A stretch of 64,000 nucleotides of DNA from positions 1 to 64,000 of the forward strand of contig JAGWZE010000013.1 in NCBI GenBank assembly GCA_018969015.1, in the 5' to 3' direction. The notes beneath the pieces were generated by a model. The model was given only the letters and a program-made list of their open reading frames with translations. It had not been told where the DNA came from and searched no databases. How positions within the stretch are numbered: position 1 is the stretch's first letter; every line of letters begins with the position of its first letter. This DNA comes from Alphaproteobacteria bacterium (lineage in GTDB: Bacteria > Pseudomonadota > Alphaproteobacteria > Caulobacterales > Aquidulcibacteraceae). Positions 57,779 through 64,000 of this stretch are shown piece after piece. The position numbers were made by a program, and so were the translations under genes.

Positions 57779-58240
57779 ATGCGTTTGACCTCCAAAGGCC
57801 GGTACGCCGTGATGGCGCTGGCGGACCTCGTGGCCAACGGCGGCGAGGCCCGGGCGATCCCGTTGCAGGACATCGCGGCGCGCCAGGAAATCTCGCTCTC
57901 GTATCTCGAGCAGTTGTTCGCGCGCCTGCGCCGCGCCGGGATCGTGGCCGGCATGCGCGGCCCCGGCGGCGGCTACAAGCTCTCGCGCCCGGCCGCGGCC
58001 GTGGCGATCGCCGAGGTGATCGTGGCGGTGGACGAGCCGATCAAGACCACCCGCTGCCGCGACGGCTCGCTGAAGAGCTGCCAGGGCAAGGTCGGCCGCT
58101 GCATCGCGCACGATCTCTGGGACGAACTGGGACGCCAGATCCACGTGTTCCTCGCGGGCGTTTCGCTGGAGGACGTGGTGGCCAAGCGCGTGGTGGGCCG
58201 CGCGGTGGCGCCGGGACTGCCGGTCGCGCCCGCCGCATGA
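57779..58240 (+). CDS. iscR: IscR-type Rrf2 family regulator
   Basis: A 153-residue Rrf2-family regulator, the Fe-S sensor of the operon. The winged HTH is MRLTSKGRYAVMALADL to LSRPAAAV, and the cluster-binding Cys are C93, C101 and C108, with His111 where the E. coli IscR ligand His lies. Together with the operon that follows, the call is firm. It is predicted to bind a 2Fe-2S cluster and control the suf genes. The stop overlaps the next ATG by four bases. Confidence 0.9.
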   Translation: MRLTSKGRYAVMALADLVANGGEARAIPLQDIAARQEISLSYLEQLFARLRRAGIVAGMRGPGGGYKLSRPAAAVAIAEVIVAVDEPIKTTRCRDGSLKSCQGKVGRCIAHDLWDELGRQIHVFLAGVSLEDVVAKRVVGRAVAPGLPVAPAA

Positions 58241-59382
58241 CGACGCTCCGCTCCGTCTATTGCGATTACAACGCCGGCGCGCCGATCCGTCCGGAAGCGG
58301 CGGACGCGCTGATGCGCACGCTTGCCGATGGCGGGAATGCGTCGTCCGTTCACGCGCTGGGTCGGCGCGCGAAGAGCCGGCTGGAGACCGCGCGCGAAGC
58401 GGTGGCGGCGGCGTGCGGGACGCGCGCGCAGGACATCGTGTTCACGAGCGGCGCGACGGAGGCTTTGCATCTTGCGCTCGAAGGCGCGCGCCGCGCCGAA
58501 CCGGCCTTGCGGCTGATCGTCAGCGCGATCGAGCACGACGCGGTCGCAGAGGCCGCGACGCTGTGGCCGGGGGCTGCGACCGCGCCCGTGACGCCGGCGG
58601 GCGTGGTCGACCTCGCGGCGCTCGACGCGCTGCTCGCCGAAGGCGGGCCGGCGCTCGTGGCGGTGATGCTCGTCAACAACGAGACCGGCGCGATCCAGCC
58701 GATCGCAGAGATCGCGCGGCGCGTGCACGCCGCAGGCGGGGTGCTGCTTGTCGACGCCGCGCAGGCGATCGGGCGCATCATCATGGACGCGCAGCGCCTC
58801 GGCGCGGACGCCGTCGCGCTCTCCAGCCACAAGGCCGGCGGGCCGCCGGGCGCGGGCGCGCTCGCGCTTACGCCGGGATTTCCGTTTGCGCCGCCCCGGC
58901 TGGGCGGCGGGCAGGAGCGCGGCTTTCGTCCGGGCACGGAAAATACGCCGGCCGTGGCGGGCTTCGGCGCGGCCTGCGCGGCGGCGACGGCTGATCTCGA
59001 CACCGAAGCCGCACGGCTCGCCGGCCTGCGTGACGCGTTCGAGGCGGGACTGCTGCGCCACGCGCCGGACGCCGTGATCTTCGCCCGCGAGGCGCCGCGC
59101 GCGCCGAACGTGACGCTTGCCGCCATTCCGGGCCAATCTGCAGAGACGGGCCTCATCGCGCTCGATCTTGCCGGCGTTGCGGCGAGCTCCGGCTCGGCCT
59201 GCTCGTCCGGCAAGGTGCGCGCGAGCCGCGTGCTGACCGCGATGGGCGTGGCGCCCGCGCTTGCGCGCTGTGCGCTCCGGTTCAGTTTCGGCTGGGCCTC
59301 GACCGAAGCCGACGTCGCGGCCGCGCTGGCGGGCGTCGAGCGTCTCGTAGTGCGCCGCGCGCGCCAAGGATCGACGCCATGA
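58237..59382 (+). CDS. Cysteine desulfurase, IscS/NifS class I
   Basis: A 381-residue PLP enzyme that moves sulfur from cysteine to scaffold proteins. The PLP lysine is in [11 protein letters not shown], the substrate/persulfide Cys is in [14 protein letters not shown], and the aspartate of the PLP site is in [10 protein letters not shown]. This is the class I (IscS/NifS) type, distinct from the SufS at the end of the operon. It overlaps iscR and sufB by four bases each. Confidence 0.9.
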
Positions 59383-60881
59383 GCGACGCCAAATCCCTCG
59401 ACGTCAAAGACGGTATCGAGCGCGAGACGGTGGACGCCGTGCGCGGGCTCGAGGCCGACAAGTACAAGTACGGCTTCACGACCGCGGTCGAGCAGGAGTT
59501 CGCGCCGAAGGGCCTGAACGCCGACACCGTGCGCTACATCTCGCAGAAAAAAGGCGAGCCGGACTGGATGCTCGAATGGCGCCTGGGCGCGTTCGAGCGC
59601 TGGCTGACGATGCAGGAGCCGGACTGGGCGATGGTGAAGTATCCGCCCATCGACTACCAGGACGCGCACTACTACGCGGCGCCGAAGGAGAAGGCGAAGG
59701 TCAAGAGCCTCGACGAGATCGATCCCGAGATCCTCGAGACCTACAAGAAGCTCGGCATCCCGCTGCGCGAGCAGGAAGTGCTGCTGGGCGTCGAAGGCGC
59801 CCCAAAGGTGGCGGTCGACGCCGTGTTCGACAGCGTCAGCGTCGTCACGACCTTCAAGGACGAACTCGCCAAGGCCGGCGTGATCTTCTGCTCCATGAGC
59901 GAGGCGATCCGCGAGCATCCCGAGCTTGTGCGCAAGTATCTCGGCTCCGTCGTGCCGGTGAGCGACAATTTCTTCGCGACGCTGAACTCGGCCGTGTTCT
60001 CGGACGGATCGTTCGTCTACGTGCCGCCGGGCGTGCGCTGCCCGATGGAGCTCTCCACCTATTTCCGGATGAACGCCTCCGGCACGGGCCAGTTCGAGCG
60101 GACGCTCATCATCGTCGACAAGGGCGGCTACGTCTCCTACCTCGAAGGCTGCACGGCGCCGATGCGCGACGAGAACCAGCTCCACGCGGCGGTGGTCGAG
60201 CTCGTCGCGCTCGAGGACGCCGAGATCAAATACTCCACCGTGCAGAACTGGTGGCCGGGCGACGCCGAAGGGCGCGGCGGGATCTATAACTTCGTGACGA
60301 AGCGCGGCGACTGCCGCGGCGCGCGCGCCAAGATCAGCTGGACGCAGGTCGAGACCGGCTCGGCGGTGACGTGGAAGTATCCGAGCTGCATCCTGCGCGG
60401 GGACGACAGCGTCGGCGAGTTCTACTCGATCGCGGTCACGAACGGGCGCCAGCAGGCCGACACCGGCACGAAGATGATCCATCTCGGCCGCAACACGCGC
60501 TCGCGCATCATCTCCAAGGGCATCGCGGCCGGGCGCTCGCAGAACACTTATCGCGGCCTCGTCTCGGCGCACGCGAAGGCGACGAACGCGCGCAACTTCA
60601 CGCAATGCGACAGCCTGCTGATCGGCGCGAAATGCGGGGCGCACACGGTCCCCTATGTCGAGGCGAAGACGCCATCGGCCACGTTCGAGCACGAGGCGAC
60701 GACGACGCGCCTTTCGGACGACCAGATCTTCTATCTGCGGCAGCGTGGGATCCCGGAGGAGGAGGCGGTGGCGCTGCTCGTCAACGGGTTCGTGCGCGAG
60801 GTGCTGCAGCATCTGCCGATGGAGTTCGCCGTCGAGGCGCAGAAGCTCGTCGCGGTGAGCCTGGAAGGAAGCGTCGGATGA
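59379..60881 (+). CDS. sufB: Fe-S cluster assembly protein SufB
   Basis: SufB, 500 residues, the scaffold subunit of the SufBC2D complex that assembles Fe-S clusters. Diagnostic segments: [47 protein letters not shown], and the C-terminal [19 protein letters not shown] and [25 protein letters not shown]. The scaffold Cys and Glu are in the C-terminal core. The ATGA overlap fixes the start. Confidence 0.95.
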
Positions 60882-61246
60882 TCGCGATCGCCGCCATCGA
60901 TCATGTCCAGGTGGCGATCCCGCGCGGCGGCGAGGCGGTCGCGCGCGGATTCTATCGTGATTTCCTCGGCCTGCCGGAGATTGCGAAGCCGGAGCCGTTG
61001 GCGCGACGCGGCGGCTTCTGGCTGCAGGCGCGGGGCTTCCAGATCCATGTCGGGATCGACGACGATTTCCATCCCGCGACGAAGGCGCATCCCGCGTTTC
61101 GCGCCGCGGGCGTGATGGCGCTGCTCGCGCGCGCGCGGGCCGCTGGCTACGAGGCCCGGCGCGACGACGAGCTCGCCGACGTCGAGCGCATTTTCCTGTT
61201 CGACCCGTTCGGCAATCGCCTCGAGTTCATTGAAAGCCCGGCTTGA
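60878..61246 (+). CDS. VOC-family (glyoxalase-fold) protein inside suf
   Basis: A 122-residue protein of the vicinal oxygen chelate superfamily. Likely metal ligands are H9 ([10 protein letters not shown]), H57 (QIHVGID) and E117 (NRLEFIES), which match the glyoxalase/dioxygenase pattern. VOC genes are not a standard part of suf operons, yet this one overlaps sufB by four bases and sufC by one (TGATG), so it is part of the transcript. The reaction is unknown. It may deal with a small metabolite or with metal or thiol stress. Confidence 0.83.
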
Positions 61247-61992
61247 TGTTGAAGATCGAAAACCTTCATGCTCGCGTCGAGGACGCGGAAATCCTTCACG
61301 GCGTCGATCTCGTCGTGCCGGCCGGCGAGGTGCATGCGATCATGGGCCCGAACGGAGCCGGCAAGTCGACGCTGTCCTACGTGCTCGCCGGCCGCGACGG
61401 CTATGAGGCGACGCAAGGGTGCGCGCTGCTCGACGGCGAAGATCTCCTCGGCCTCGAGCCCGAATCGCGCGCGGCCAAGGGCGTGTTTCTCTCGTTTCAG
61501 TATCCGGTCGAGATCCCCGGCGTGCCGACGCTCACGTTCCTGCGTCTGGCGCTGAATGCGCAGCGCAAGGCGCGCGGCGAGGCCGAGGTGTCGAGCCCCG
61601 AGTTCCTCAAGCTCGTGCGCGCGAAAGCGGCGGCGCTCAAGATCGATCCGGACATGCTGAAGCGGCCGGTGAATGTCGGCTTCTCCGGCGGCGAGAAGAA
61701 GCGCCTCGAGACGCTGCAGATGATGGTGCTCGAGCCGCGCTTCGCCATTCTCGACGAAACCGACTCCGGCCTCGACATCGACGCGCTGCGGATCGTCTCG
61801 GAGGGCGTCAACGCCCTGCGCGCGGCGGACCGCTCGATGCTCGTGATCACGCACTATCAGCGCCTCCTCGACTACATCCGCCCGGACCGCGTGCACGTGC
61901 TCGTGGACGGCCGCATCGTCGACAGCGGCGGACCGGAGCTCGCGCACGAGCTCGAGGCGCGCGGCTATGACCGCTACGGCAAGGCGGCCTGA
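61246..61992 (+). CDS. sufC: Fe-S cluster assembly ATPase SufC
   Basis: SufC, 248 residues, the ABC-type ATPase of the SufBCD complex. Walker A GPNGAGKST, Q-loop LSFQYPVEIPGV, signature FSGGEKKR, Walker B FAILDETDSGLD, switch His in VITHYQR. The start shares the A of the preceding TGA; an upstream TTG in the same frame is less likely. The end overlaps sufD by one base. Confidence 0.95.
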   Translation: MLKIENLHARVEDAEILHGVDLVVPAGEVHAIMGPNGAGKSTLSYVLAGRDGYEATQGCALLDGEDLLGLEPESRAAKGVFLSFQYPVEIPGVPTLTFLRLALNAQRKARGEAEVSSPEFLKLVRAKAAALKIDPDMLKRPVNVGFSGGEKKRLETLQMMVLEPRFAILDETDSGLDIDALRIVSEGVNALRAADRSMLVITHYQRLLDYIRPDRVHVLVDGRIVDSGGPELAHELEARGYDRYGKAA

Positions 61993-62879
61993 TGGGCGCG
62001 ACGACCCTCCGTGAGGCGCTGCCGACGCGGCGCGTCGAGGCCTGGAAGTACTCCGACCTCCGCGCGGCGCTGCGCGACGTGGCGCTGCCGGATCGTCCTG
62101 CGCCCGCGGACGGCGACGTCATCGTCGCGCTGGCCGGCGACGTCGAGACGATCGTCGTCGGCGCCGGCGAGCGGCGTGTGATCACCGAGCGCTTCGCGGG
62201 CGAGGGGCTCGATGCGCGGGCAAGCCGCATCGAGGTCGGTCCGGGGGCGAGCGTGGAGCGGATTGTGATCCAGACCGGCGGCGGAGCGCCGCTGTCGAGC
62301 TGCGCGGTGCGGCTCGCAGAAGGGGCGCGCTTCGCGCAGGTCACGCTGGCGCTGGGCGCGCGGTTGGCGCGGCTCGAAACGACCGTGAGCGTCGAAGGCG
62401 CCGGCGCCGCGGTGGAGCTTGCCGGCGCGTATCTCGTCGGCGAGGGGCGCCATGCCGATCTGACGACCCGCGTCGAGCATCGCGCGGCGGGCTCGACGAC
62501 GATGCAGCTGGTGAAAGGCGTGGCGCGGCCCGGCGGACGCGGCGTGTTCCAGGGCAAGATCGTGGTGGCGGAAGGCGCGCAAAAGACCGACGCGCGCCAG
62601 ACGCACCGGGCGCTGCTGCTCGGCGAGGGCGCCGAGATCGACGCCAAGCCGGAACTCGAGATCTACGCCGACGACGTGCAGTGCGCGCACGGCAACACGA
62701 TCGGCGCGCTCGACGAGGCGGCGCTGTTCTATCTGCGCAGCCGCGGCCTGCCGCTGGCGCAGGCGCGCGCGCTGCTGATCGAAGCGTTCGTGCTGGACTC
62801 GCTGCCGGCCTGGCTCGACGCCGCGCCGCACGGGGAGATCCACGCCGCCATCGACCAGTGGTTGAGGGCCGCGCCATGA
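61992..62879 (+). CDS. sufD: Fe-S cluster assembly protein SufD
   Basis: SufD, 295 residues, the second scaffold subunit. N-terminal RRVEAWKYSDLRAALRDVALP and C-terminal EIYADDVQCAHGNTIGALDEAALFYLRSRGLPLAQARALLIEAF are typical; the length is on the short side for SufD. It is translationally coupled to sufC and to sufS. Confidence 0.92.
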   Translation: MGATTLREALPTRRVEAWKYSDLRAALRDVALPDRPAPADGDVIVALAGDVETIVVGAGERRVITERFAGEGLDARASRIEVGPGASVERIVIQTGGGAPLSSCAVRLAEGARFAQVTLALGARLARLETTVSVEGAGAAVELAGAYLVGEGRHADLTTRVEHRAAGSTTMQLVKGVARPGGRGVFQGKIVVAEGAQKTDARQTHRALLLGEGAEIDAKPELEIYADDVQCAHGNTIGALDEAALFYLRSRGLPLAQARALLIEAFVLDSLPAWLDAAPHGEIHAAIDQWLRAAP

Positions 62880-64000
62880 GCTTCGACGTCGACGCGGTCC
62901 GCGCGCAATTCCCGATCCTGTCCCGGACGGTGCACGGCAAGCCGCTCGTCTATCTCGACAGCGCGGCTTCGGCGCAGAAGCCGGAGGCGGTGATCGAGGC
63001 GATGGCGGCCGCAATGCGCGGCTCCTACGCCAACGTGCATCGCGGGCTGCATACGCTCGCCAACGAGACGACCGCCGCCTACGAGGACGCGCGCGCCAGC
63101 GTGGCGCGGTTCGTCAACGCGCCGTCGCCTTCGAACGTGGTGTTCACCAAGGGCGCGACGGCGGCGATCAACATCGTCGCGGCGGGGTTCGGCGCCACGA
63201 TCCAGCCGGGCGACGAGATCGTGCTTTCGGTGATGGAGCACCACTCCAACATCGTGCCGTGGCATTTCCTGCGCGAGCGCAAGGGCGCGGTGCTGCGCTG
63301 GCTCGACATCGACGAGGACGGCCGCATCGATCTTGACGCGTTCGCCGCCATGCTCGGCCCGCGCACGCGGATGGTGGCGCTCACGCACATGTCCAACGTG
63401 CTCGGCGTCTCGACGCCGGCGGCGGAGGTGGTGCGCATCGCGCATGCGGCGGGCGTGCCCGTGCTGCTCGATGGGTGCCAGGCCGTCGTGCACGGTCCCG
63501 TCGACGTGCAGGCGCTGGGCTGCGACTACTACGTCTTTTCCAGCCACAAGCTCTACGGTCCGACGGGGATCGGCGCGCTCGTGGGCACGGCGGCGGCGCT
63601 CGATCGGCTGCCGCCATTCGAGGGCGGCGGCGAGATGATCGACGTCGTCACGCAGGACGCGGTCACCTATGCCGATCCGCCGCACCGCTTCGAAGCCGGC
63701 ACGCCGCCGATCCTCGAGGCGATCGGGTTCGGCGCCGCGATCCGTTGGCTCGAAACGCAGGATCGCGCGGGCGCGCTTGCGCACGAGCAGGCGCTGACGG
63801 CGCATCTCTCGGAGCGGCTGCGCGACTTCAACTGGATCCGGCTGCATGGCCAGGCGCCGGGCAAGGCCGGGATCGTCGCGTTCAGCGCCGAGGGCGCGCA
63901 TCCGCATGACATCGCCCAGATCGTCGACCGCTACGGCGTCGCGATCCGGGCCGGCCATCACTGCGCGCAGCCGCTAATGCGGCGGCTCGGCGTTTCCGCC
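62876..64000 (+). CDS. sufS: Cysteine desulfurase SufS (3' end beyond window)
   Basis: SufS, class II cysteine desulfurase, of which 374 residues are visible; the reading frame runs off the window. The PLP-binding Lys is in FSSHKLYGPTG, the Asp in LLDGCQAVVHG, and the catalytic Cys in RAGHHCAQPLM near the end, so the conserved parts are intact. SufS passes sulfur to SufBCD, usually with SufE/SufU; neither is in the window but the operon may continue. Starts four bases before the sufD stop. Confidence 0.94.
   Translation, partial: MSFDVDAVRAQFPILSRTVHGKPLVYLDSAASAQKPEAVIEAMAAAMRGSYANVHRGLHTLANETTAAYEDARASVARFVNAPSPSNVVFTKGATAAINIVAAGFGATIQPGDEIVLSVMEHHSNIVPWHFLRERKGAVLRWLDIDEDGRIDLDAFAAMLGPRTRMVALTHMSNVLGVSTPAAEVVRIAHAAGVPVLLDGCQAVVHGPVDVQALGCDYYVFSSHKLYGPTGIGALVGTAAALDRLPPFEGGGEMIDVVTQDAVTYADPPHRFEAGTPPILEAIGFGAAIRWLETQDRAGALAHEQALTAHLSERLRDFNWIRLHGQAPGKAGIVAFSAEGAHPHDIAQIVDRYGVAIRAGHHCAQPLMRRLGVSA

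Follow-up and report, generated by a model that had tools for sequence, protein, structure and literature searches.

A recurring, non-universal gene for a putative metal-dependent VOC enzyme in the variable sufB-sufC slot of an isc-suf operon

The window analyzed here is a stretch of 64,000 nucleotides from a genome of the order Caulobacterales (contig JAGWZE010000013.1), and it carries iscR-like, iscS-like, sufB, VOC, sufC, sufD-like, and sufS-like genes in this order (Table 1). The SufB and SufC proteins of the window scored 619.8 bits against NCBIfam TIGR01980 (cut-off 346.4) and 346.3 bits against TIGR01978 (cut-off 212.8), respectively. The original prediction had placed a VOC gene between sufB and sufC, overlapping both, and this is what we found. 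The ORF of 122 amino acids runs on the forward strand from the ATG at 60878 to the TGA at 61244-61246. The TGA of sufB lies at 60879-60881, and the two genes have 4 nt (ATGA) in common, while the ATG of sufC at 61246 has 1 nt in common with the VOC stop. In addition, a purine-rich GGAAGGA is found 8 nt upstream of the VOC start.

Table 1. The VOC gene, its overlaps, and the neighboring genes in the window
Feature	Positions	Strand	Remarks
iscR-like Rrf2 regulator, first in the presumed operon	57779..58240	+	Named from similarity among relatives and from the operon order given in the available part of PMC11475020
iscS-like cysteine desulfurase	58237..59382	+	Putative name
sufB	59379..60881	+	NCBIfam equivalog cut-off passed
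Purine-rich GGAAGGA, ribosome-site-like, within sufB	60863..60869	+	Read from the sequence; putative function
ATGA overlap, sufB stop / VOC start	60878..60881	+	
VOC-fold (glyoxalase/FosA-like) protein gene, 122 aa	60878..61246	+	Candidate metal ligands H9, H71, E116; H57 nearly invariant
TGATG overlap, VOC stop / sufC start (1 nt shared)	61244..61248	+	
sufC	61246..61992	+	NCBIfam equivalog cut-off passed
sufD-like gene	61992..62879	+	tblastn to relatives' suf loci; putative name, from order and similarity
sufS-like cysteine desulfurase, continues past window end	62876..64000	+	Putative name

The DNA is GC-rich, and 1853 of 4467 RTGA sites in the studied loci open at least 50 codons (coding frames included). 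Because so many of these sites open long frames, an open frame alone is weak evidence for a gene. We found that the dN/dS values of the nine copies in genus g6 ranged from 0.034 to 0.25 over 36 pairs, and purifying selection acts on the VOC gene in this genus. For the window copy against the others, dN/dS was 0.19-0.43 (7 comparisons with unsaturated synonymous sites). The homologues and the dN/dS values together show that the VOC ORF is a real gene. Meanwhile, the window copy is divergent, with an end branch of 1.37 in the protein tree, and it may therefore be under looser constraint or have taken on an altered function.

The distribution of the VOC gene was investigated in 398 genomes of the order with a match threshold of E <= 1e-15. 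A match to the VOC protein was found in 22 of them, 15 in the suf operon and the other 7 elsewhere. The 15 suf-located copies span two families. They occur in the window's own genome (1/1 of genus g1), in 9/9 sampled genomes of g6 (same family), and, within family f3, in 4/21 genomes of g23 and 1/1 of g31. The original prediction had asked for a survey of suf operons in relatives and had taken presence in only one genome, together with no phenotype, as a mark of chance insertion. The gene lies there in 15 genomes of two families, and a single-genome insertion is rejected (15/398). Since the arrangement recurs in related bacteria, the VOC gene is a genuine operon passenger and not a one-off accident.

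The fit of the gene between its neighbors varied. For G035 the sufC side alone is in view, where the contig ends. Among the 14 copies with sufB in view, a VOC start inside the sufB stop is possible for 10, and intervening sequence separates sufB from the VOC gene in L049, L050, L051, and L054. In this interval, L049 (7555-8096) and L051 (6496-7163), both of g6, have small gene pairs resembling toxin-antitoxin modules. Pfam assigns the L049 toxin to ParE and gives no match for its antitoxin-like partner, and the L051 pair was judged by eye. Beyond the order, 22 of 385 genomes in the class sample matched (the own genome included), and none of the other 21 has sufB or sufC in the flanks (<=1.5 kb). 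One of the homologue loci, L030, has an unrelated ABC gene nearby with 27% identity to SufC. Of 359 genomes sampled across the phylum, 12 matched, and the suf-located ones were only the own genome and the already counted G005 and G050. A viral scan for VOC homologues gave no match, and a genome-contig scan gave one distant match (L013), which was left out. Furthermore, among the papers listed by our searches of the open-licence PMC literature, we recognized none that describes a suf-located VOC protein.

A SufB match is present in 381 of the 398 order genomes, against 15 with a suf-located VOC gene. For comparison, we used 40 SufB-bearing genomes of the order chosen among the matches listed of these 381, comprising 20 from f1, 10 from f3, 5 from f2, and 5 from f4, with none from f5 or g23. 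This VOC gene was found at sufB-sufC in 0/40 of them. These counts, together with the class and phylum surveys, do not support a conserved (core) Suf component. The sufB-sufC gap exceeds 150 nt in 33/40 comparators. Most of the wide-gap ones show ORFs there, lipoprotein-like or membrane-like by eye and many with no Pfam match, and L105 has no ORF of at least 45 codons in the gap. Four of 10 scanned ORF products from the slot region pass a Pfam cut-off, namely a 2OG-Fe(II) oxygenase, a RidA-type protein, a SnoaL-like protein, and a ParE toxin. In addition, 29 comparators have a sufB ending in RTGA. One of these overlaps opens directly into sufC, and 24 of the remaining 28 open at least 50 codons, against the above proportion for all RTGA sites in the same loci.

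Other junctions of the operon are narrower by most counts. The sufD-sufS gap exceeds 150 nt in 2/46 loci, and the iscS-sufB gap in 0/12, the latter in VOC-bearing loci only. For sufC-sufD, a gap above 150 nt was found in 3/52 loci and 3/38 comparators when the furthest-upstream start was taken (a lower bound). The upper bound, in which sufD starts where similarity to the window SufD begins, gave 16/52 loci, with 10 of the 16 VOC-bearing, and 6/38 comparators. If sufD does start at that point, the sufC-sufD junction may be wide too in VOC-bearing loci, and the lower-bound count would then overstate how exclusive the slot is. Outside the order, 36 hand-picked genomes were inspected, 21 of them picked for holding a VOC homologue. 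SufB was found in 29 of the 36, 2 of which were cut off and left out. The sufB-sufC gap exceeds 150 nt in 12/27 of these class genomes, which weakens the idea that the slot is special to the order.

Some occupants recur. L094 (1188-1580) and L096 (1167-1565), both of f4, have a RidA-type (Ribonuc_L-PSP) gene between sufB and sufC, called by Pfam for L094 and by likeness for L096; this is another type of metabolite-damage enzyme in the slot. Genomes of f3 and f2 (L054 4362-4724, L058, and L101 1080-1442) repeatedly show a similar-looking ORF of about 120 amino acids at this place, and the L054 one has no Pfam match. This ORF may be the C. crescentus gene annotated as ADP-ribosylglycohydrolase. 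Such variety is what is expected if the position is neutral, that is, if a useful gene sits in a permissive junction and gains nothing from expression with suf. The junction indeed houses many different ORFs, and VOC homologues occur in several other operons. However, 15/22 order homologues lie at this one junction, and 10/14 copies with sufB in view overlap the sufB stop, so we consider a neutral position unlikely.

The protein tree placed 13 of the suf copies in one clade with support 96/95, and L017/L018 (g23) stood apart. This tree, in which the bootstrap had not settled and 21/40 inner branches were open, suggests but does not prove two independent captures at sufB-sufC, and a single clade of all 15 suf copies stays unrejected (p-AU 0.315). 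A SufC tree of 55 rows, built by a quick method, requires 4 changes of the VOC label; in it the window SufC falls among family f1, and the copies from f3 fall among their own family. Both vertical presence with losses and cassette exchange fit these results. That the best tree shows two VOC groups at this junction would also suit a lineage-specific Suf accessory in contact with SufB or SufC, which could handle iron or protect persulfide sulfur, for instance. The gene overlaps both sufB and sufC in the window, is retained in the operon in 9/9 g6 genomes, and is kept next to later insertions in L049 and L051. However, it is suf-located in only 15/398 order genomes, it is absent from the slot in 40/40 comparators, and the homologues found outside the order do not adjoin suf genes. 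Such an accessory therefore seems rather unlikely. Likewise, a part in Fe-S assembly was not supported: the 40 relatives have other ORFs or none at this place, and homologues lie in unrelated operons.

These other settings were seen in 36 non-suf loci scanned for neighbors, where several homologues have close same-strand neighbors in housekeeping operons. For instance, the VOC homologue lies after creD and before sdhB in L019 and L021, and near sdhB on the opposite side in L026, L028, and L031; the sdhB adjacency was seen in two different orders. It follows a gene with a C-terminal ACT domain, which we read as spoT-like, in L034 and L112 (one and the same place), L115, and L116. In L109 and L110 it is flanked by hisS-like and hisZ-like genes, and in L011 it has a peptidyl-prolyl isomerase-like gene on one side and queA on the other. 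In L043 it precedes a RuvX gene (Pfam). Five loci of a more distant VOC subclade (L038, L040, L041, L043, and L044) have a 4-nt overlap with the start of a RuvX-like gene, the Pfam check covering L043 only. In L022 it follows a UDG-superfamily (uracil-DNA glycosylase) gene, and some members of this superfamily carry an Fe-S cluster. The other non-suf loci have no convincing neighbor, and L020, L029, and L045 have none on either side. These settings fit a free-standing enzyme that moves into well-expressed operons, and the sdhB and UDG neighbors leave room for an Fe-S link. In that case, the VOC subfamily would protect or repair Fe-S proteins, or clear a metabolite released on their damage, and there would have been repeated capture near Fe-S genes: at sufB-sufC (possibly twice), at sdhB (two orders, opposite sides), and at the UDG-superfamily gene. 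The Fe-S neighbors were noticed post hoc, and we consider these two ideas, taken jointly, to be quite improbable.

As to the protein itself, it passes the Pfam Glyoxalase model PF00903 narrowly (22.2 bits, cut-off 20.6) and aligns with PDB 2qqz_A gap-free over 117 residues (E = 1.1e-28; 5e-46 by profile). The window protein is thus predicted to have the VOC fold, as a member of the VOC superfamily, and its full-length ungapped similarity and common conserved residues place it in the 2QQZ-type subfamily. In the alignment of all 44 extracted relatives, H9, P38, W48, H71, and E116 are identical in 44/44, K37 and N113 are kept in 43/44, and Q11, H57, and R104 in 42/44. Strict invariance of H57, true in a 24-row alignment, is broken in 2/44 (D in L032 and T in L036). 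H9, H71, and E116 align with FosA positions that we take to be the FosA metal ligands. The H/H/E set named by the original prediction is therefore found where metal-dependent VOC enzymes would have it, and the protein would bind a divalent metal. In L046 (7428-8291), the VOC frame continues into a C-terminal part, presumably DUF559-like, giving a 287-aa reading frame ahead of sufC.

A profile built from 24 relatives, picked among the 44 extracted, also reaches FosA, FosB, methylmalonyl-CoA epimerase, and glyoxalase I entries (E <= 0.01), and the window protein passed no curated NCBIfam cut-off. A Fos-type (fosfomycin-resistance) thiol transferase would agree with FosA and FosB being among the best-scoring characterized relatives by profile and with the aligned H/H/E positions, but the protein falls far below the curated Fos cut-offs (FosF 16.1 bits versus 280), and the conserved K37, P38, W48, H57, and R104 suggest a different pocket, which makes this function very unlikely. 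A glyoxalase I removing methylglyoxal is equally hard to credit: PF00903 is the family in question and, at E <= 0.001, 4/24 family members have a match among glyoxalase I models, but the window protein itself has no match to TIGR00068 or NF050074 (E <= 0.1; E <= 0.001), and methylglyoxal removal is an unlikely task since a glyoxalase I-like gene is present elsewhere in the window's genome (G000:C25:6498-6869; 111 bits, cut-off 120). Such a gene was also found in 8/9 other genomes tested, and 0/10 pass the 120-bit cut-off.

Taken together, we give a probability of about 0.55 to the reading that the VOC protein is a stand-alone metal-dependent enzyme of the 2QQZ type, encoded by co-expressed cargo in the variable sufB-sufC slot of the isc-suf operon. 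The VOC gene would be transcribed from the iscR promoter within the operon, and its translation would be coupled to sufB by the start-stop overlap. With the transcript shared and the translation coupled in this way, the VOC level would follow the iron response of the operon. The original prediction that the protein is produced with the Fe-S assembly proteins accords with its position, and the view of co-expression draws on C. crescentus, in which the slot gene is a different one. The substrate of the enzyme is probably a small metabolite, either an electrophile or a carboxylate, and the enzyme would do metabolic damage control and build no clusters. Its link to Fe-S assembly is best read as shared expression, not participation. 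A counterpoint to the cargo reading is that 9/9 g6 genomes keep the VOC gene in suf, even beside the insertions of L049 and L051, and this retention could mean a tighter Suf link than the cargo reading allows.

We propose that the sufB-sufC junction is a slot of variable content within an iron-regulated operon that is compact elsewhere, and that genes in it would be produced alongside the Fe-S machinery. Thus, slot occupants are candidate enzymes useful in low iron. The VOC gene recurs across families with its presumed active site kept, and we see it as recurring but non-universal cargo of a known operon, placed where the gene content varies.

Among known proteins, PDB 2qqz (a putative glyoxalase family protein) has the conserved H, W, AH, and DPFGNR-E motifs in common with the VOC protein. 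A literature search found no functional paper on it, and the figure legend of a methods paper, as far as the available text goes, marks predicted ion ligands on this structure. The FosA/FosB metallothiol transferases are alike in VOC family and H/H/E positions, but the VOC protein lies far under the Fos cut-offs and has other conserved residues. As to the position, a parallel is found in Muricauda olearia, which we take to belong to another phylum. Its momL gene, which like the VOC gene encodes an enzyme outside the Suf set, lies between sufB and sufC and is reported as co-transcribed with suf in the available part of PMC5484670. The product given there is an AHL lactonase, unlike the VOC protein. 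Closer in position is CC_1863/CCNA_01939 of C. crescentus, a small non-Suf gene at the same junction that is iron-regulated according to the available parts of PMC11475020 and PMC3751524. Its annotation there, ADP-ribosylglycohydrolase, is another protein family, and it is likened to the VOC gene by position only. In the sections of PMC11475020 at hand, this small ORF is assigned to the operon, with RT-PCR of some junctions, and the operon responds to iron starvation but not to H2O2 or paraquat. Furthermore, in the microarray data of PMC3751524 (Table 3, the part available), the junction ORF was 8.30-fold up in iron limitation, alongside 7.81 for sufB and 7.89 for sufC.
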